From Flavobacteriaceae bacterium (GTDB taxonomy: Bacteria > Bacteroidota > Bacteroidia > Flavobacteriales > Flavobacteriaceae), in the NCBI GenBank assembly GCA_024742935.1, contig JANSXN010000007.1, positions 1 to 59,042 of the forward strand: a stretch of DNA of 59,042 nucleotides. Reading direction: 5' to 3'. Each line of letters starts with the position of its first letter. Positions within the stretch are counted from its first letter, which is position 1. A program made the translations under genes and the position numbers. The notes under the pieces were generated by a model. The model was not told where the DNA came from. It ran no database searches and worked only from the letters and a program-made list of their open reading frames with translations. This document shows positions 1,752-10,513 of the stretch, piece after piece.

Positions 1752-1874
1752 ATGAAACCATTATATAAGTTTATGATTTGTATAATTAAAAGTTATAGAA
1801 TGCCAGACTATGACCTTAATAAGCTGGATGAAGGCTGGAGACAAAAGGCAATGAATAGTTGGACTAATTTTTAG
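1752..1874 (+). CDS. Possible 40-aa small protein
   Basis: An ATG at 1752 opens a 40-codon frame ending in TAG at 1872-1874, overlapping the last 4 bases of the converging LysR gene. The product has a mixed hydrophobic N-terminal half (MKPLYKFMICIIKSY) and a polar, tryptophan-containing C-terminal half with DEGWRQKAMNSW. I recognise no family and no clear promoter precedes it. It is the only open frame of note in the 263-base gap between the antiporter and LysR genes, and may be a chance frame. Confidence 0.2.
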   Translation: MKPLYKFMICIIKSYRMPDYDLNKLDEGWRQKAMNSWTNF

Positions 1875-2794
1875 TATCTGTCATACCAACCAAAATTTAA
1901 ATTAATTATTTTCTTTTTTTCCTTTTTTATATGGTTTAAGTAAGCTAAAGCTACAGGAGAAAACTTTTTGCCTTTCATCCAAATAATCTGCCAGTTTGAT
2001 TTGATGGGAAAGCCTCCCACAGGAATAATTTCCAGATCCCCGTTTTTTAACTCATTTTTGATCCCGATTATAGGCATTACTGAATAACCAAGCCCTGCAA
2101 TAACAGCTTGTTTTACAGCTTCATTTGAGGTGAGCTCCATTTTTTTTAACACCGGAAGGTTGTTTTTCTTCATAAAGTCTTCCATTACCTGCCTGGTGCC
2201 TGAGCCTTGCTCTCTATAAATCAATGGTATTTTACTGAAAATATCTTTACTGTTATGTTCTTTTTTTAAATCTTGTCCTTTGGAACCAATCAAAAAAAGC
2301 TTGTTTTCCATAAGTTCAATACTTTCGGTATTGAGTTTTTCGGGAAGAACAGAAACGAGTGCAATATCCACTTCATTGTTTTCGAGGTTTTCAATTACTT
2401 TCGATTTATTTGTCACATCCAAAGACAGATTTACACCCTGATTTTGCTGAACAAATGAAGATAAAAAATAAGGCATGACATATTTTCCGGTAGATACAAT
2501 TGAAATCTTTAACCGCCCTGAAAGTTGTCCCTGAAAAGCCAAAGTCCTTGAGTTAATCGTTTCTACTTCCCGGATTATATTTTCTGCAATTTCTGCAATT
2601 TCTTTCCCAAATTCTGTAATGTATATTTTTCTGCCTATGACCTCAGTAAGAGGAATTTCAAACTGTTCCTGAAAATTTTTTAGCTGAATTGAAACAGCCG
2701 GTTGAGATAAGTGCAATTCCTTAGATGCCTTTGTAACACTTTGAGTTTGGGCAACCTTTAGATAAACCTGTAACTGATGTAGCGTATAGTTCAT
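1871..2794 (-). CDS. LysR-type transcriptional regulator
   Basis: The 307-residue product has the standard LysR length and order. A winged helix-turn-helix occupies about residues 3-62, with the recognition segment SQPAVSIQLKNFQEQF. A linker helix follows, then a periplasmic-binding-protein-like effector domain at about 90-290. It is transcribed away from the 90-aa gene and sbtA, an arrangement that in LysR systems usually means control of the divergent genes. By analogy with CmpR and CcmR, which control bicarbonate transport in cyanobacteria, it may sense a carbon metabolite; that is inference. The start ATG lies at 2792-2794 and the shared spacer is 179 bases. Confidence 0.9.
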   Translation of the reverse strand: MNYTLHQLQVYLKVAQTQSVTKASKELHLSQPAVSIQLKNFQEQFEIPLTEVIGRKIYITEFGKEIAEIAENIIREVETINSRTLAFQGQLSGRLKISIVSTGKYVMPYFLSSFVQQNQGVNLSLDVTNKSKVIENLENNEVDIALVSVLPEKLNTESIELMENKLFLIGSKGQDLKKEHNSKDIFSKIPLIYREQGSGTRQVMEDFMKKNNLPVLKKMELTSNEAVKQAVIAGLGYSVMPIIGIKNELKNGDLEIIPVGGFPIKSNWQIIWMKGKKFSPVALAYLNHIKKEKKKIINLNFGWYDRY

Positions 2795-2973
2795 TAAAAT
2801 ATATTATATGTTATATCAAATATATAAATATTTTTTTATAAATACTTTAAGCGAAATTTGCTCCAACAAAAATTGATATGAGAGGTAAAAGTAAAAACAA
2901 TATAAGGCCAATTTTTACAAAACATCTTTTCAAGTTTAATCCCATAGAGTTATTAACAAAAATGTACTAAGCA
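2795..2973. promoter_or_regulatory. Divergent promoter/operator region between lysR and the sbtA operon
   Basis: This 179-base spacer separates two divergent starts. Its lysR-proximal part (about 2798-2850) is extremely AT-rich and full of partial dyads such as ATATTATATGTTATAT, as expected for LysR binding sites (T-N11-A). No single operator can be pinned down by eye, and no clear TAnnTTTG box is visible for either direction. Confidence 0.4.
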
Positions 2974-3246
2974 ATGAAGAAGTTAAAACTAATTGAAGGA
3001 AAATTTAATTCTGAGGAGGCTAAAGAAATTCTTCTTAGTCTTATAAACAGTAAAATTCAGTTTCACACCATCAATGAATTTAGTCTACAAGAACGCACAG
3101 GTGAATCAAAATCTACGTCTACAGAACGAATAAAAGAATTGCTGGAAACAAAAGAACTCATTTTATCAATTATAGAAAAATCAAAAAAAGAAAACCTATT
3201 TCTAGATATTCATTCAACCCTTAATATAGACTATTGCTCAAAATAA
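2974..3246 (+). CDS. Conserved-looking 90-aa protein of unknown function upstream of sbtA
   Basis: The product is a small, charged, soluble protein without signal peptide or membrane helix. It starts MKKLKLIEGKF, has a helical EEAKEILLSLINSKIQFH segment, then a conserved-looking QERTGE turn and a second long helix (residues about 47-75). From memory, proteins with this EAK...IQFH...ER.G pattern occur in other Flavobacteriia, but I know of no assigned function. It lies 45 bases upstream of the bicarbonate transporter and is almost certainly co-transcribed with it. The place is where cyanobacteria put the PII-like SbtB next to SbtA, but the sequence does not look like a PII protein. Confidence 0.75.
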   Translation: MKKLKLIEGKFNSEEAKEILLSLINSKIQFHTINEFSLQERTGESKSTSTERIKELLETKELILSIIEKSKKENLFLDIHSTLNIDYCSK

Positions 3247-3291
3247 ACTAAAACACATAGCAGATTTCAATTTAATCAAATTCTAAAAAAT

Positions 3292-4251
3292 ATGACTCTT
3301 GACTTATTGATTGATAACTTAACCAGCCCTGCTTTACTTTTTTTTGTAATGGGAATACTGGCAGTTCAACTAAAAAGTGATTTAGAAATTCCTGAAGGCT
3401 CATCAAAATTTATCTCCCTTTACCTACTTTTCTCCATTGGATTTAATGGTGGCCGCGAATTAGCTCACAGTGAATTTAATTTAGAAATAATCTGGACCGC
3501 ACTTTTTGGAATCATTACGGCTATCGTGATTCCTTTCTATACTTTTTTTCTATTAAAGAGAAAATTAAGCATTGAAAATTCTGGAGCAATAGCTGCTGCA
3601 TATGGCTCCATAAGCGCCGTTACCTTTGTTACAGCAGTTTCATTTTTAGAATTTCAGCAAATTGACTTTAGTGGGCATATGGTAGCTCTTATGGCATTGA
3701 TGGAAGCCCCTGCGATTGTAATTGGGGTTATTTTGATTAAAATTTATGGAGAAAAAGAGCAAAATTCTCCTAAAATGAAAAGCCTTGTAAGTCACTCTTT
3801 TGCAAATGGCAGTGTGGTGATGATCCTGGGAAGTTTAATCATTGGACTTTTGGCAAGTGAAAGTCAAGCCCAAGGCATATCACCCTTCACAACAGATATT
3901 TTTAAAGGGTTCCTCGCAATTTTTCTATTGGATATGGGAATCATAAGCGGTAGAAAATTAGGGGACTTTTTTAGGAGCGGCTGGTTTACCACGGCATTCT
4001 CAATTGTCATTCCATTAATAAATGGATGTGTTGTTGCTTGGTTAAGCTTTTTGGTAACTGAAAATGTTGGAGATAGATTTATGCTTTCCATCCTGGCAGC
4101 AAGTGCCTCATACATTGCTGTTCCCGCTGCAATGAAAATAGCTGTGCCAAAAGCAAATCCCAGTCTTTATTTGCCAATGGCCCTGGCGGTCACCTTTCCT
4201 TTCAATATCACTTTTGGGTTTCCCATTTATTTGTCAATAATTGGAAGTTAA
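3292..4251 (+). CDS. sbtA: Sodium-dependent bicarbonate transporter, SbtA family
   Basis: The 319-residue, roughly ten-helix membrane protein shows the SbtA (formerly DUF897) pattern. The first helix has SPALLFFVMGILAVQLKSDL, followed by an IPE motif and the conserved SIGFNGGREL in helix 2. A hydrophilic loop lies near residues 155-165, and the second half repeats the first (GFLAIFLLDMGIISGRKL). The family imports HCO3- with Na+ across the inner membrane. In a heterotroph this would feed anaplerotic carboxylation rather than Rubisco. It follows the 90-aa gene by 45 bases, divergent from the LysR gene. The length is somewhat shorter than the cyanobacterial protein, mainly in the cytoplasmic loop. 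Confidence 0.88.
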   Translation: MTLDLLIDNLTSPALLFFVMGILAVQLKSDLEIPEGSSKFISLYLLFSIGFNGGRELAHSEFNLEIIWTALFGIITAIVIPFYTFFLLKRKLSIENSGAIAAAYGSISAVTFVTAVSFLEFQQIDFSGHMVALMALMEAPAIVIGVILIKIYGEKEQNSPKMKSLVSHSFANGSVVMILGSLIIGLLASESQAQGISPFTTDIFKGFLAIFLLDMGIISGRKLGDFFRSGWFTTAFSIVIPLINGCVVAWLSFLVTENVGDRFMLSILAASASYIAVPAAMKIAVPKANPSLYLPMALAVTFPFNITFGFPIYLSIIGS

Positions 4252-4335: not shown

Positions 4336-4893
4336 ATGATTTTAGAAATTATCAAACGCCGCCGCGCTGTTTTCCCTGCTCAATACAACCAAAAGCCCAT
4401 TTCAAAAGACCAAATTCTTCAGGCACTGGAAGCTGCTAACTGGGCGCCCACTCACAAACGCACAGAACCCTGGCGGTTTAAAGTATTACAAGAAGAAAGT
4501 CTGGTTAAACTTGGAAACTTTTTGGCTGAAAAATACAAAACAACAACTGATAATTATTCTGACTTTCAATACAACAAACTTAAAGAAAACCCCACAAAAG
4601 CATCTTGCATAATCGCCATATGTATGCAACGTGACCCCAAAGAATCTCTCCCCGAGTGGGAAGAAGTAGCAGCTACTGCTATGGCCGTTCAAAATATGTG
4701 GTTGGTTTGCACTGATATGAATATTGGTGGGTATTGGAGTTCGCCGGGATTAATTAAACACATGCACGAGTTTTTTGACTTCGCGGCGGGCGAAAAATGC
4801 CTCGGCTTTTTCTATATGGGTAATTTTGATGAACCCTTACCCGAAGGTTTTCGCAAAAGCGGTATTGAGGATAAAGTTTCTTGGTTTGAATAA
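4336..4893 (+). CDS. Nitroreductase family protein
   Basis: The 185-residue product fits the small NfsB/YdjA-type flavin oxidoreductases. The FMN-phosphate-binding RRRAVF motif sits at about residues 8-13, the APTHKRTEPWRF segment at 37-48, and the conserved glycine-rich GGYWSSPGL near 135. Members are cytoplasmic FMN homodimers that reduce nitro compounds, quinones or related substrates with NAD(P)H; the physiological substrate cannot be told here. It stands 84 bases after sbtA with its own start region. A TATCTTTA sequence just upstream resembles a -7 box with one mismatch. Confidence 0.88.
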   Translation: MILEIIKRRRAVFPAQYNQKPISKDQILQALEAANWAPTHKRTEPWRFKVLQEESLVKLGNFLAEKYKTTTDNYSDFQYNKLKENPTKASCIIAICMQRDPKESLPEWEEVAATAMAVQNMWLVCTDMNIGGYWSSPGLIKHMHEFFDFAAGEKCLGFFYMGNFDEPLPEGFRKSGIEDKVSWFE

Positions 4894-5002: not shown

Positions 5003-5245
5003 ATGGAACGTAGAAATTTTATTAAGAAATCCGGTCAGATTCTACTTGCCGCATCAACGCTTTCAGTTACTGCATCTTTTTTAGCTTCCTGCAGTTCTGA
5101 TGACGATGGTTTTTTTAACGATGGGTATTATGGTGACGGTTACTATGACGACGGTTATTATGGTGATGGTTACTATGATGATGGATACTATGACGACGGG
5201 TATTATGATGATGGTTACTATGGCGACGGGTATTATGGCGGATAG
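5003..5245 (+). CDS. Tat-type lipoprotein with YY(G/D)DG pentapeptide repeats
   Basis: The product has only 80 residues. The N-terminus ERRNFIKKSG matches the twin-arginine motif, followed by a hydrophobic stretch and a lipobox (LASC, Cys30). After SSDDDG come FFNDG and then eight Tyr-Tyr pentads (residues 42-80): YYGDG and YYDDG variants, the last shortened to YYGG. The mature part thus has 16 tyrosines among about 50 residues and no globular domain. Tat export usually serves proteins folded or modified in the cytoplasm. A large glycosyltransferase gene starts 87 bases downstream with no terminator between, so this may be its substrate (inference). Synonymous codons vary between repeats, pointing to selection on the peptide. 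Confidence 0.8.
   Translation: MERRNFIKKSGQILLAASTLSVTASFLASCSSDDDGFFNDGYYGDGYYDDGYYGDGYYDDGYYDDGYYDDGYYGDGYYGG
5111..5242 (+). repeat. 15-bp tandem repeat array encoding Tyr-Tyr pentads
   Basis: Nearly nine 15-base units follow each other in frame. Each encodes two aromatic residues, Gly/Asp, Asp and Gly. The units differ mostly at third codon positions (tat/tac, ggt/ggc/gga/ggg, gat/gac), and the second Tyr codon is always tat. Confidence 0.9.
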
Positions 5246-5332
5246 ACCGTAAGTCTTTTTCCATCATTCCTACTTTCACATTACACTCAATTAGTTTTGG
5301 GATGGTTTTAGTATTGTCTAAAAAACGCAACA

Positions 5333-7402
5333 TTGAATTCAATTTTATTTTTACACGACACCAATATCAATACACCCAGAGGTGCTGAATTAACTATCAA
5401 AGAACTTATTGAACTCGGCGAGAATAAAGGCTTTTCTATTTCAACAAACCTACTCACACATTTTGAATCTGCTAAAAATGAGATAGTAAATTCAGACCTG
5501 GTAGTTTTAAACAGTACTTCAAGGTGCAATTTTGAATTTGAACTTTTAGAGTTTTTAATTGCATCCTCCACACCCTATATAAAAGTGGAGTATGATTATA
5601 ACTTTTGTGTGCGCAGAAACATTTTATGCACCGTTGACCGAAACGTACAAAGTTGTTGCAACACAGATAAATTTCATCTTTACAGAAAACTGTTTGCTCA
5701 GTCAGAACTAAATATTTTTCAATCGCCAAAACACTATGAGGCTCATTTTGATTTTTATGGCAAAGCTGTGTCAAAGCACCTCATTATGCCACCCACAGTT
5801 CAAATCGAGCATTTAAAACCCTCAACATTTAAACAAGACCACACCATCCCCTTTTTTGGAGACTTGAATTACTTGAAAGGCGGTAATGCATATATTGATT
5901 ATGCTTTGGAACATCCCAAACTAAATTTCACAGTATATGGAACAAACCGTATAAGGAGAGAAATACCGGAAAATATTTCATTCCACAACCCGGTTGCAAA
6001 TACAGAGGTTTTAGAAATATTGGGTAAAACAAAACAATTTATCTGTCAGCCCGTTTGGCCCGAACCTTCCGGCAGGCTTGCTGCAGAAGCTTTTCTTTCT
6101 GGTTGTGAAATGATTACCAACGATCGAATCGGAACTTTTTCATTTGAATTTTATCCTCATGATAAAGAACAAGCCATAAAGGAAATTAAACAAGCCCCTG
6201 AAAACTTCTGGAATGCTATTCAGAAGATTTTAGTAGCCAAAAAAACTGTTGAAAAGCAAAAAAATTTAGGAAAAGTCTTAGTTTATAAAAGTTATGGTGG
6301 ATTGGGTGATATCTTTTTTGCCATTCCGGCAATCAATAAAATAGCTGAAGTTTCAGAAAAAGTTGACTTTGCTGTAGCTCCAAGACTCGTCCCATTTTTT
6401 AAAAAGTACTTAGAAAAAGTCACTGTCGTTGATGAAACTGAAGCCAGAAACCGGGAAAATAATTATGACAATGTCTATGAACTGGGCAACTACCCGGCTT
6501 TTAGGGGTTATGATTTACCACATGCATTAAAATACCCCACTCATAAAAAAGTAAAACAACACGCCATTCAGCATTATATTGATACAGTTTCAAAACTTCA
6601 CAAAAGGATTGATAACCATCTTGAGGTTTACCCTTATTTTGAAAGAAACCCAAATCCTAAGGAGAAGTATTTTGTGGTTCATCACGGTGCCGGTTTTCTT
6701 TTAAAAATATGGCCCACAGAAAAGTATGCAGCTTTAATAGAACGTTTACACGAAATGTATCCCCACCTGAAATGCAAAATCATTCAAGGCCCTGATGACC
6801 CTGATATTAAAAGTTGCTTTTCAAAAAAAATGAATCATGTTGATTATGTTACAGGCGGCATGGAAGACGTTGGCGAAGCCATGGCAGGGGCACTTTTCCA
6901 CATTGGTAATGACGCAGGAATCACTCACGTGGCAGGCGCTTTCAATGTGCCTTCAGTGGGAATTTACGGCCCAACCGGGCCGGGTAGTTGGGGTAGCTTT
7001 GCTAAGCATAACGAACTCATTTGGGGTAAACAGGGAGTTTGTAACATTCGCTGCAATTATGATGTAATTTTAAACTGTGAGCACAGAATCTGTTTAAATT
7101 CTGTAACCGTTGAGCGCGTTCTTGAAGCCTTGTACAAACTGCTTCAAAAGGCATATCCTTCAGCTGAAAAATCACTTAGAGCAAACCCGATGCTCGATGT
7201 TCAATTTGGAAAAAATGACTGTATCTTAAACTTAGGAGGAAACGAATTCCTTATTGAATATCAGGATGATAAAATGAAAAATCAATTGGAACTATTATTT
7301 GAAAATCCAATAAATATTGACGCTGCCAATCAAGACTTGCAACTTGCTATTTCTCTGTTTATCCAGCAAAATATACTTTTTGAAATCCCGGAATTTAACT
7401 AA
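5333..7402 (+). CDS. Two-domain glycosyltransferase (GT4-like plus GT9-like) with a C-terminal extra domain
   Basis: The 689-residue protein begins with TTG; an in-frame stop at 5309-5311 leaves no better start. Residues 1-290 resemble a GT-B glycosyltransferase: a Cys-rich centre with YDYNFCVRRNILC, then WPEPSGRLAAEAFLSGC near 240, a GT4-like donor-site pattern. Residues about 305-590 look like an ADP-heptose:LPS heptosyltransferase (GT9): KSYGGLGDIFFAIPAI, HHGAGF, WPTEKYAALI, and HIGNDAGITHVAGAFNVPSV. The last 75 residues form short strands followed by helices ending NILFEIPEF, recalling winged-helix peptide-recognition (RRE/PqqD-like) domains; this is a weak resemblance. No membrane helices are seen, so it should act in the cytoplasm. 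The upstream Tyr-repeat Tat lipoprotein is the likely partner. Confidence 0.8.
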   Translation: MNSILFLHDTNINTPRGAELTIKELIELGENKGFSISTNLLTHFESAKNEIVNSDLVVLNSTSRCNFEFELLEFLIASSTPYIKVEYDYNFCVRRNILCTVDRNVQSCCNTDKFHLYRKLFAQSELNIFQSPKHYEAHFDFYGKAVSKHLIMPPTVQIEHLKPSTFKQDHTIPFFGDLNYLKGGNAYIDYALEHPKLNFTVYGTNRIRREIPENISFHNPVANTEVLEILGKTKQFICQPVWPEPSGRLAAEAFLSGCEMITNDRIGTFSFEFYPHDKEQAIKEIKQAPENFWNAIQKILVAKKTVEKQKNLGKVLVYKSYGGLGDIFFAIPAINKIAEVSEKVDFAVAPRLVPFFKKYLEKVTVVDETEARNRENNYDNVYELGNYPAFRGYDLPHALKYPTHKKVKQHAIQHYIDTVSKLHKRIDNHLEVYPYFERNPNPKEKYFVVHHGAGFLLKIWPTEKYAALIERLHEMYPHLKCKIIQGPDDPDIKSCFSKKMNHVDYVTGGMEDVGEAMAGALFHIGNDAGITHVAGAFNVPSVGIYGPTGPGSWGSFAKHNELIWGKQGVCNIRCNYDVILNCEHRICLNSVTVERVLEALYKLLQKAYPSAEKSLRANPMLDVQFGKNDCILNLGGNEFLIEYQDDKMKNQLELLFENPINIDAANQDLQLAISLFIQQNILFEIPEFN

Positions 7403-9385: not shown

Positions 9386-10513
9386 TTATTTTTTAAATGT
9401 TCTCCCCTTCCAGGTGTAGTTTCCAAACAAAGCCTTTAAAGCAATATAAACCGTTAAAACCGGATATAAAAAAGCCATAAGTCGTAAATAAATCCAATGG
9501 ATTTCTTTTTTAAAAAAAGCATTTAGTTGATAGACAAAAACCTCATCAATAGCCCATTTCACTAGAATGAGCATCAAAAAAAACACTCCGTTTTCAGATT
9601 GAAAAAGCATCCAAAAAGCAAGTAACAAAGCGACATTTGCTGCAATCACCACTATGCCAGTAAATTTACTAAACACACTTTTATAGCCCGAGGTTTTTGC
9701 AGCCCAACGCACCCGTTGATGGACAACAGCAGACCAGTTTTTTTCTGTTTTTGTGTAAACAACGTGCGTTATGTTTTTCAGGAAATGAACTTCGCCCGGA
9801 AAAGCCGACTGCAACTTTTCCAGTAAAAATAGATCATCACCGCTTGCAATATGGTCATTGCCCTCAAAACCATTAACCGACTCAAAGGCTGACTTTTCAT
9901 AAGCCAGGTGTGCCCCATTACCCATGATGGGGGTTTTTAATCCAAATCCTCCCATCGTCACTCCCGCCAAGGTGAGGCTTTCCAGAAATTGATAATGACT
10001 GATAAAAAAACGGTTTTCGGGAATTGCCAAAACAGGTCCGGCAATCATTTTGGATGGGGTGTTTTGAATAAATACATTTAGGTTTTTCAATAGGTTTTCG
10101 GGCAGGATGCAATCGGCATCGGTAGTAAAAATCCAGTTGTGGGTTGCTTTGGAAACGGCCAGTTTGATAGCATCTTTTTTTGGCGAACCGGTTTTTCGTT
10201 CATTATCAATTATTTTCCAGCCGGAAGGTTTCCTTTTCAATACAAATTGCTGAATCGTCACTACTGAAGCATCTTCTGAAGCATCATTGACAAACAGCAC
10301 TTCAAAATAGTTGTCAGGATATTTCAAAGCCAAAATAGACTGCATCAATGCCGGAAGGTTTTCGGCCTCATTGCGAAAAGGAATGACTAAAGTGAAGGTT
10401 GTTTTTCGGGTTGTCTTTTGAACAGAAAACGTTTTCAGCCGAAAGAATCCAATGCCAAATGAGACCATCAAAATAGCATAAAGACCGATAGATAGAATAA
10501 GAAACCAAATCAT
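9386..10513 (-). CDS. Membrane-bound family 2 glycosyltransferase
   Basis: The 375-residue protein begins with a membrane helix. A GT-A domain follows: FTLVIPFRNEAENLP (about residues 41-55), LFVNDASEDAS, TDADCILP with the DxD motif, GDDLFLLEKL, and QRVRW, the QxxRW-type acceptor motif of processive or lipid-linked GT2 enzymes. Two or three membrane helices close the protein. It should transfer a sugar from a nucleotide donor on the cytoplasmic face of the inner membrane. It overlaps the upstream flippase-like gene by 4 bases (10510-10513), so the two form an operon and may act on the same lipid-linked glycan. Confidence 0.87.
   Translation of the reverse strand: MIWFLILSIGLYAILMVSFGIGFFRLKTFSVQKTTRKTTFTLVIPFRNEAENLPALMQSILALKYPDNYFEVLFVNDASEDASVVTIQQFVLKRKPSGWKIIDNERKTGSPKKDAIKLAVSKATHNWIFTTDADCILPENLLKNLNVFIQNTPSKMIAGPVLAIPENRFFISHYQFLESLTLAGVTMGGFGLKTPIMGNGAHLAYEKSAFESVNGFEGNDHIASGDDLFLLEKLQSAFPGEVHFLKNITHVVYTKTEKNWSAVVHQRVRWAAKTSGYKSVFSKFTGIVVIAANVALLLAFWMLFQSENGVFFLMLILVKWAIDEVFVYQLNAFFKKEIHWIYLRLMAFLYPVLTVYIALKALFGNYTWKGRTFKK

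Follow-up and report, generated by a model that had tools for sequence, protein, structure and literature searches.

The window analyzed here is a stretch of 59,042 nucleotides from a Flavobacteriaceae bacterium (GenBank assembly GCA_024742935.1, contig JANSXN010000007.1, positions 1 to 59,042), and carries two genes in tandem on the forward strand. The first encodes a short lipoprotein of the twin-arginine translocation (Tat) type, referred to as the precursor, and the second encodes a fused glycosyltransferase (GT), referred to as the enzyme, that ends in a small additional domain (Table 1). A first-pass annotation had described an 80-residue twin-arginine and lipobox protein of Tyr-Tyr repeats lying 87 bases before a 689-residue protein, and the open reading frame (ORF) coordinates confirm this layout, with the gap at positions 5246–5332. 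The pairing of the lipoprotein with a dual transferase and a domain resembling those that grip peptides suggests that the lipoprotein is sugar-coated inside the cell before export.

Table 1. Features of the gene pair and of two nearby genes, in positions of the window
Feature	Position	Strand	Basis or remark
Precursor, Tat-type lipoprotein with YYxDG repeats, 80 residues	5003..5245	+	conserved directly upstream of the enzyme
Signal and presumed recognition leader, twin-arginine signal and lipobox to Cys30	5003..5092	+	
SSDDDG after the lipid Cys, resembling lipoprotein export signals (surface display)	5093..5110	+	
Repeat array, eight DGYYx units, presumed substrate region	5120..5242	+	
Enzyme, GT4-GT9-RRE-like fusion, 689 residues, TTG start	5333..7402	+	
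GT4-like module, residues 1-303, exchangeable	5333..6241	+	VIA-align Z 18-23 to GT4-type structures
GT9 module, residues 313-606, constant in the enzymes	6269..7150	+	PF01075 E 4e-16; WaaC Z 18.8, 22% identity
Four invariant Cys (C570, C574, C582, C587), possible GT9 metal knuckle	7040..7093	+	30/30
C-terminal domain resembling a RiPP recognition element, residues 611-689	7163..7399	+	structure; stand-alone homologue L092:4849-5097
Nitroreductase-family gene	4336-4893		adjoins the pair
GT2-type glycosyltransferase gene	9386-10513	-	PF00535 E 4.5e-19

The repeat lipoprotein and its co-occurrence with the enzyme

The precursor ORF consists of 30 residues running through the lipobox cysteine (LASC, Cys30), followed by SSDDDGFFN and eight DGYYx units, such that the mature part is, as first described, almost entirely Tyr-Tyr pentads. 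Tandem Repeats Finder placed the array at 5118–5237 with periods of 15, 30 and 45. In 394 repeat units, drawn from 45 distinct precursors, the first two codon positions of D-G-Y-Y are invariant and the third is free, an invariance to be read with the fact that the units were chosen by their amino acids. Because only third codon positions vary, the array has been maintained as protein despite drift of the DNA, and it is a protein-level feature rather than a DNA artefact. At its fifth position the unit has Asp in 305 cases, Gly in 71, Glu in 6, Asn in 4, Val in 3, Cys in 2, Met in 2 and Ser in 1, and the number of YY pairs per array ranges from 3 to 18.

The region ahead of the array is equally regular. 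RRxF followed by L, I or V occurs in all 45 precursors (a set selected by RR near the start), the length from Met to Cys is 30 residues in 44 of them and 31 in one, and all 45 have at least two Asp or Glu residues between +2 and +7. This acidic stretch resembles the Capnocytophaga lipoprotein export signals SDDFE and SDDDD, which, in the portion of PMC5080379 that describes them, put a reporter on the cell surface. TatC is encoded in the genome (E 3e-62). Judged by its motifs, namely the twin-arginine signal, lipobox and acidic signal, together with the presence of TatC, the precursor is a predicted Tat-exported surface lipoprotein. Additionally, a short gene with a conserved leader, a distinct core and a modifying enzyme alongside has the features of a candidate precursor of a ribosomally synthesized and post-translationally modified peptide (RiPP).

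Some relatives of the precursor extend beyond the array. A conserved C-terminal stretch of roughly 100 residues is present in L006, L014 and others, and more than 60 additional residues follow the array in 18 of the 45 precursors; in the examples tested, this stretch had no Pfam match over the cut-off and no NCBIfam match. Altibacter lentus (L037:4881-5911) has two tandem repeat lipoproteins ahead of one enzyme, one of which stops after the array while the other carries the extra C-terminal stretch.

A protein search identified the enzyme in 28 of 397 Flavobacteriaceae genomes, and the DNA pattern for DGYYxDGYY is present in the same 28, with both features absent from the other 369. The reversed control pattern gave zero matches in the genomes listed. 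A repeat ORF lies directly upstream of the enzyme on the same strand in 27 of the 28. In the remaining genome (G131), the enzyme lies against the end of its contig and carries an N-terminal fragment other than GT4. The pattern match there was rejected as a chance DGYYDDGYY inside a huge ORF of a different contig, which by eye is alpha-2-macroglobulin-like; thus the verified pairing figure is 27 of 28. Positive and negative genomes occur side by side in six genera (g73, g116, g149, g175, g243 and g252), and the enzyme and repeat pattern switch together in all six, though the negative genomes of g243 and g252 are just 88% and 79% complete. An additional contig search recovered the pair in 26 of 26 loci from Planktosalinus, Aequorivita, Altibacter, Flavobacterium, Halomarinibacterium and metagenome-assembled genomes, several of these loci being duplicates of records in the 397-genome set. 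Among 30 flanked loci, the enzyme was recognized in 29 (L057 ends within it), and in all 29 the repeat ORF lies -4 to 183 bases ahead of the enzyme. The outer neighbors are varied, with 18 clusters among 25 upstream ORFs and 12 among 28 downstream, as called mechanically and with some possibly spurious.

Two separate searches thus select the same genomes, and the gene pairing is real and beyond chance. The expectation that the repeat ORF would always adjoin the transferase held apart from the contig end, and the contrary case, homologues beside lipopolysaccharide (LPS) genes with no repeat peptide, did not arise in either set of loci. It is extremely improbable that the two genes are neutral neighbors co-inherited without a common function. 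Every case does come from one family, and the neighborhood is partly syntenic, with a nitroreductase gene no more than two genes away on one side or the other in 17 of 29 loci; against co-inheritance of this kind stand the shared presence in the same 28 of 397 genomes, the joint gain and loss in the six mixed genera and the varied flanks, as well as the nitroreductase itself, which, unlike the precursor, varies independently of the enzyme.

No tail-bearing relative was found outside Flavobacteriaceae in a limited search of phylum and class genomes. At E 1e-30, 395 phylum genomes, with at most 4 candidates scored per genome and many of those listed being Flavobacteriaceae, yielded matches only in G000 and the congener G003, while 281 class genomes at E 1e-15 yielded G000 and four distant GT9s without the tail. 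Other families of the order gave four weak matches to the enzyme (E 2e-5 to 1e-3). No match was found on plasmids at E 1e-30 or on viral contigs.

Modules of the enzyme

The first-pass division of the enzyme into GT4-like and GT9-like modules is supported by predicted structure. The GT9 module was the sole region detected by Pfam at E-values up to 0.1, and NCBIfam returned GT9 models under their cut-offs plus one chance match. An AlphaFold2 model built from 30 sequences (predicted local distance difference test score, pLDDT, 84) has a GT4-type fold over residues 1–303, with Z-scores up to 23, and a GT9 fold over residues 313–606, with WaaC the structure compared in Table 1. The GT4 identity of part of the matched structures is presumed, as only some of the entries are titled GT4. 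In the Foldseek ranking for the enzyme model, WaaF, a Veillonella GT9 and WaaC lead the list and TibC is tenth. Asp326, Lys458 and the four cysteines are invariant in 30 of 30 aligned enzymes; the MGD and K-x-W positions of WaaC align to Asp326 and Lys458, the stretch around Asp326 scoring only 0.6 bits, and these two are taken here as the catalytic and donor-binding residues. The PF01075 match and a GT-B fold with invariant Asp326 and Lys458 place the module in the GT9 family. The cysteines are spaced x3-x7-x4 in a stretch where the model has low confidence, and the cluster was rejected as proof of kinship with TibC, as ordinary distant GT9s also carry Cys clusters.

The full GT4-GT9-tail arrangement is present in 24 of the 28 family genomes. 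G292 and G182 have GT9 and tail alone, adjoining a DUF5672-GT2 fusion, and in G250 the GT4 is truncated and a convergent GT2 is present. At the level of loci, the GT4 module is absent in L031 and L033 and truncated in L032, and GT2 ORFs of a single cluster adjoin L093, L094, L095 and L120. This loss or replacement of GT4 in some loci indicates that the partner transferase is exchangeable, whereas GT9 plus the tail are the near-constant parts.

The kinship of the GT9 module raises the question of whether the transferases instead build an envelope glycan, with the lipoprotein as its regulator, anchor or export partner and not its substrate. The best sequence and fold matches of the module are the LPS heptosyltransferases WaaC and WaaF, and the GT2-type gene lies about 2 kb downstream on the other strand. 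Conversely, no glycan-assembly cluster stood out among the neighbors listed, which had no systematic annotation. The four distant GT9s of other families have no tail, and neither does the genome's own second GT9; a flippase-like ORF (by eye) adjoins three of the four distant ones, and the short loci of all four (2.6–3.6 kb) showed no repeat lipoprotein. The envelope-glycan alternative is very unlikely.

The 79-residue tail, modeled alone from 25 sequences (pLDDT 86.8), has the predicted topology b-b-b-b-a-a-b (b, strand; a, helix). The canonical RiPP recognition element (RRE) has three helices; the tail is predicted to have one helix fewer plus a terminal strand. Only four chains reach a VIA-align Z of at least 8, and they are ThcOx (9.2 and 8.8), the PbtF RRE (8.9) and TbiB1 (8.0). 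Of the top 12 Foldseek rows for the tail, 11 are RiPP-pathway proteins. For ThcOx and PbtF, the part matched by the tail is the RRE itself, according to the alignment ranges and title, and for the other RiPP-pathway rows the matched part is presumably also an RRE. The first-pass annotation had proposed a winged-helix recognition domain and a comparison with PqqD; a small fold of the winged-helix type is indeed predicted, with RREs as the best structural matches, and PqqD gives a Z of 5.8, below ThcOx, PbtF and TbiB1.

Searching with a profile of the tail gives strong matches (E 2.6e-19 or better) in the same 28 genomes and, additionally, a second copy in G256. Eight weak matches occur in other genomes (E 8e-5 to 0.01), of which the one in G333 was dismissed as chance, being antisense to another ORF and containing stops. 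The second G256 locus (L092:4081-5332) encodes a 59-residue repeat lipoprotein with three DGYY units and a GT2 ORF, and the 82-residue stand-alone tail homologue lies between these two. The tail is fused in all 30 aligned enzymes and discrete in L092 beside a precursor. As it is mostly fused, once discrete, and beside a precursor wherever the flank is visible, the tail behaves like an RRE, in addition to its predicted winged-helix-type fold.

Proposed modification of the lipoprotein and its precedents

It is likely, given these features, that the two genes form a RiPP-like glycosylation system, in which an RRE would guide a cytoplasmic modification of a Tat-exported lipoprotein. The lipoprotein would be the precursor, with its 30-residue Tat signal as leader and the DGYYx array as the modified region. 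The RRE-like domain would hold the precursor, probably by the leader, while GT9, together with GT4 or another transferase where present, would attach sugars in the cytoplasm to many residues of the repeats, with the tyrosine hydroxyls of the array as the most probable sites. The modified chain would then leave via Tat, be cleaved by signal peptidase II at Cys30 and lipid-anchored, and the export signal may route it to the outer surface. That this would be the first RRE-guided, multi-site tyrosine glycosylation, in which a GT4-GT9-RRE fusion sugar-coats a repetitive Tat lipoprotein in the cytoplasm, is a stronger statement, and the chances for and against it seem evenly balanced.

The composition of the arrays favors tyrosine as the predicted acceptor. 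Tyr accounts for 830 of 2034 array residues, Asp for 696 and Gly for 469; 6 are Ser, none is Thr and the remaining 33 are of other types, so that tyrosine is practically the sole hydroxyl acceptor within the array. A quite unlikely alternative is that the enzyme glycosylates Ser or Thr next to the lipid Cys, with the array serving as a spacer or ligand-binding element. Most precursors do have Ser or Thr within two residues after the Cys, and Ser/Thr glycosylation is described as commoner than that of Tyr in bacteria (in the section of PMC12645811 on this subject). Against such a role for the array stand its strong constraint, with 3–18 YY pairs and invariant codon positions 1 and 2, and the second G256 precursor, which retains three DGYY units beside the stand-alone tail.

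Several observations weigh against the proposed system. Glycosylation, binding and activity are all predictions from sequence and structure. The tail is called RRE-like from its predicted fold alone: it has no Pfam or NCBIfam match at E up to 1, nothing significant among PDB sequences (best E 0.83, to unrelated proteins), and Foldseek matches with a best E of 0.06 and none at 0.001. VIA-align Z-scores under 8 may signify merely a common arrangement of elements, and winged helices of ribosomal oxygenases, among which we count structure 2xdv, reach 7.0–7.7. The second G256 locus has neither GT9 nor GT4, its tail standing beside a GT2. Similarity among leaders follows similarity among tails beyond that of GT9 (partial rank correlation 0.47, 0/999 permutations, 43 pairs, leaving out L051 with its broken ORF and no profile match and L092 with no GT9), a modest value, and leader correlates with GT9 just as strongly once the tail is taken into account (0.52); the co-variation is for this reason weak evidence of leader binding. 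Finally, the GT2-type gene downstream indicates that other glycan genes are nearby, and the enzyme may have a role in some other glycan.

In another reading, the tail is an ordinary winged-helix dimerization or scaffold domain and the enzyme recognizes the array directly, as TibC does its repeat protein. The oxygenase winged helices and the lack of an RRE match at the level of sequence are compatible with it, and TibC has a GT9 fold, a beta-barrel and an iron finger, with which it glycosylates its substrate (PMC4358343). The predominance of RiPP-pathway proteins among the top Foldseek rows and the stand-alone tail copy beside a precursor argue the other way, and an ordinary scaffold is unlikely. 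It should be noted that this alternative shares its chemistry with the RRE-guided system, and thus the odds assigned to the several explanations do not sum to one.

In the 99.4% complete genome, gmhA and rfaE domain II had no match, and rfaE domain I had two matches (L125 and L126), both below the cut-off, the better of which (L125) is, by eye, a carbohydrate-kinase-like ORF next to one resembling purF. With gmhA and rfaE domain II not found and rfaE domain I below the cut-off, ADP-heptose is an unlikely donor by this gene content, and heptose was rejected as the added sugar, no ADP-heptose pathway gene exceeding its cut-off. As the pathway seems absent, a plain heptosyltransferase reading of the GT9 is not warranted, which also weighs against the proposed system.

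Each part of the system belongs to a kind already known, and their combination appears to be new. Known RREs (PqqD, ThcOx/LynD/TruD, MccB, lasso B1 and PbtF) are likewise winged helices of about 80 residues fused to or beside a modifying enzyme near a short precursor; here the domain is fused to GT4-GT9, is recognized by structure and not by sequence, and the leader would be a Tat lipoprotein signal. A structure-guided survey from 2025 includes RREs fused to PF00535 (GT2-type) glycosyltransferases, and 'PF01075' occurs 0 times in its main text (PMC12710340). In the bufferins, as characterized in the main text of PMC12452194, an export signal also replaces the typical leader and an RRE-type partner (DUF2063-RRE) is present, with approximately 16% of Buf2 predicted to have lipoprotein signals; the bufferins differ in their MNIO iron enzyme, in modification mainly of Cys, and in the use of Sec rather than Tat, and neither 'Tat' nor 'glycosyltransferase' occurs anywhere in that main text.

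The BAHT enzymes, including TibC, share a heptosyltransferase fold that hyperglycosylates a surface protein (in the account of PMC4358343), and a four-Cys knuckle, and TibC was among the first ten Foldseek ranks. The enzyme described here has no N-terminal beta-barrel, its GT9 being preceded by a GT4 fold or by nothing, has an additional RRE-like part, and matches WaaF and WaaC better; the ADP-heptose genes were not found in its own genome. The iron finger of TibC is built on Cys 339, 342, 358 and 370 (PMC4358343, in the passage on this element), compared with x3-x7-x4 here, and the TibC-type barrel and finger spacing that mark BAHT are both lacking. Cacaoidin is a ribosomal peptide with a disaccharide on Tyr and GT2 and GT4 enzymes in its cluster, but is a Streptomyces lanthidin modified at a single Tyr, and the three glycosyltransferases named in the relevant part of PMC8068269 are GT2 and GT4. 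The S-layer protein SpaA of Paenibacillus alvei carries sugar on surface-protein tyrosines, with the difference that its glycan is initiated by the polyprenol-linked WsfP and transferred by a proposed oligosaccharyltransferase (from the relevant portion of PMC2943079). Bufferins, cacaoidin and TibC thus provide precedents for an export-signal leader, for RiPP tyrosine O-glycosylation and for surface-protein hyperglycosylation, respectively. To our knowledge, neither an RRE nor a Tat lipoprotein is part of the S-layer tyrosine glycosylation system. The first-pass annotation knew of no described system with such a layout, and among listings of open-licence literature no description of a GT9 or GT4-GT9 RRE fusion, or of the repeat lipoprotein, was found.

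Should the proposal be correct, it would join RiPP leader recognition to surface protein glycosylation, two fields that have been kept apart, with a RiPP-style enzyme yielding a surface glycoprotein instead of a peptide natural product. It would also explain the use of Tat by a small repetitive lipoprotein, which would already be modified on leaving the cell. Because the compact two-gene system occurs in genera that include named strains (Aequorivita, Altibacter, Flavobacterium and Planktosalinus), tyrosine glycosylation, the reading of an export signal by an RRE and the exchange of partner glycosyltransferases could be addressed there directly, and the pair might be developed into a means of programming tyrosine glycosylation.

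Other genes near the pair

The nitroreductase-family gene was considered as an obligatory third partner and rejected. G004, a congener without the enzyme, has a nitroreductase, and G019, G032 and G033 show the reverse; the gene is on another contig in G001 and G002 and approximately 11 kb from the enzyme in G016.

Further upstream, an antiporter-like gene (by eye) at 350-1607 on the reverse strand is split into two overlapping ORFs in different frames, 1173-1607 (144 residues) and 350-1276 (308 residues). A 15-base tandem duplication lies within it at 1258-1287, and the congener locus L034 has an intact 418-residue ORF with a similar start. Either a genuine frameshift or an error in the assembly could account for the split. 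The region 1871-4251 holds an Sbt_1 bicarbonate-transporter gene (PF05982, E 2e-113), a preceding ORF of 90 residues and a divergent LysR regulator. The 90-residue ORF had no Pfam match over the cut-off and may be a regulatory partner.

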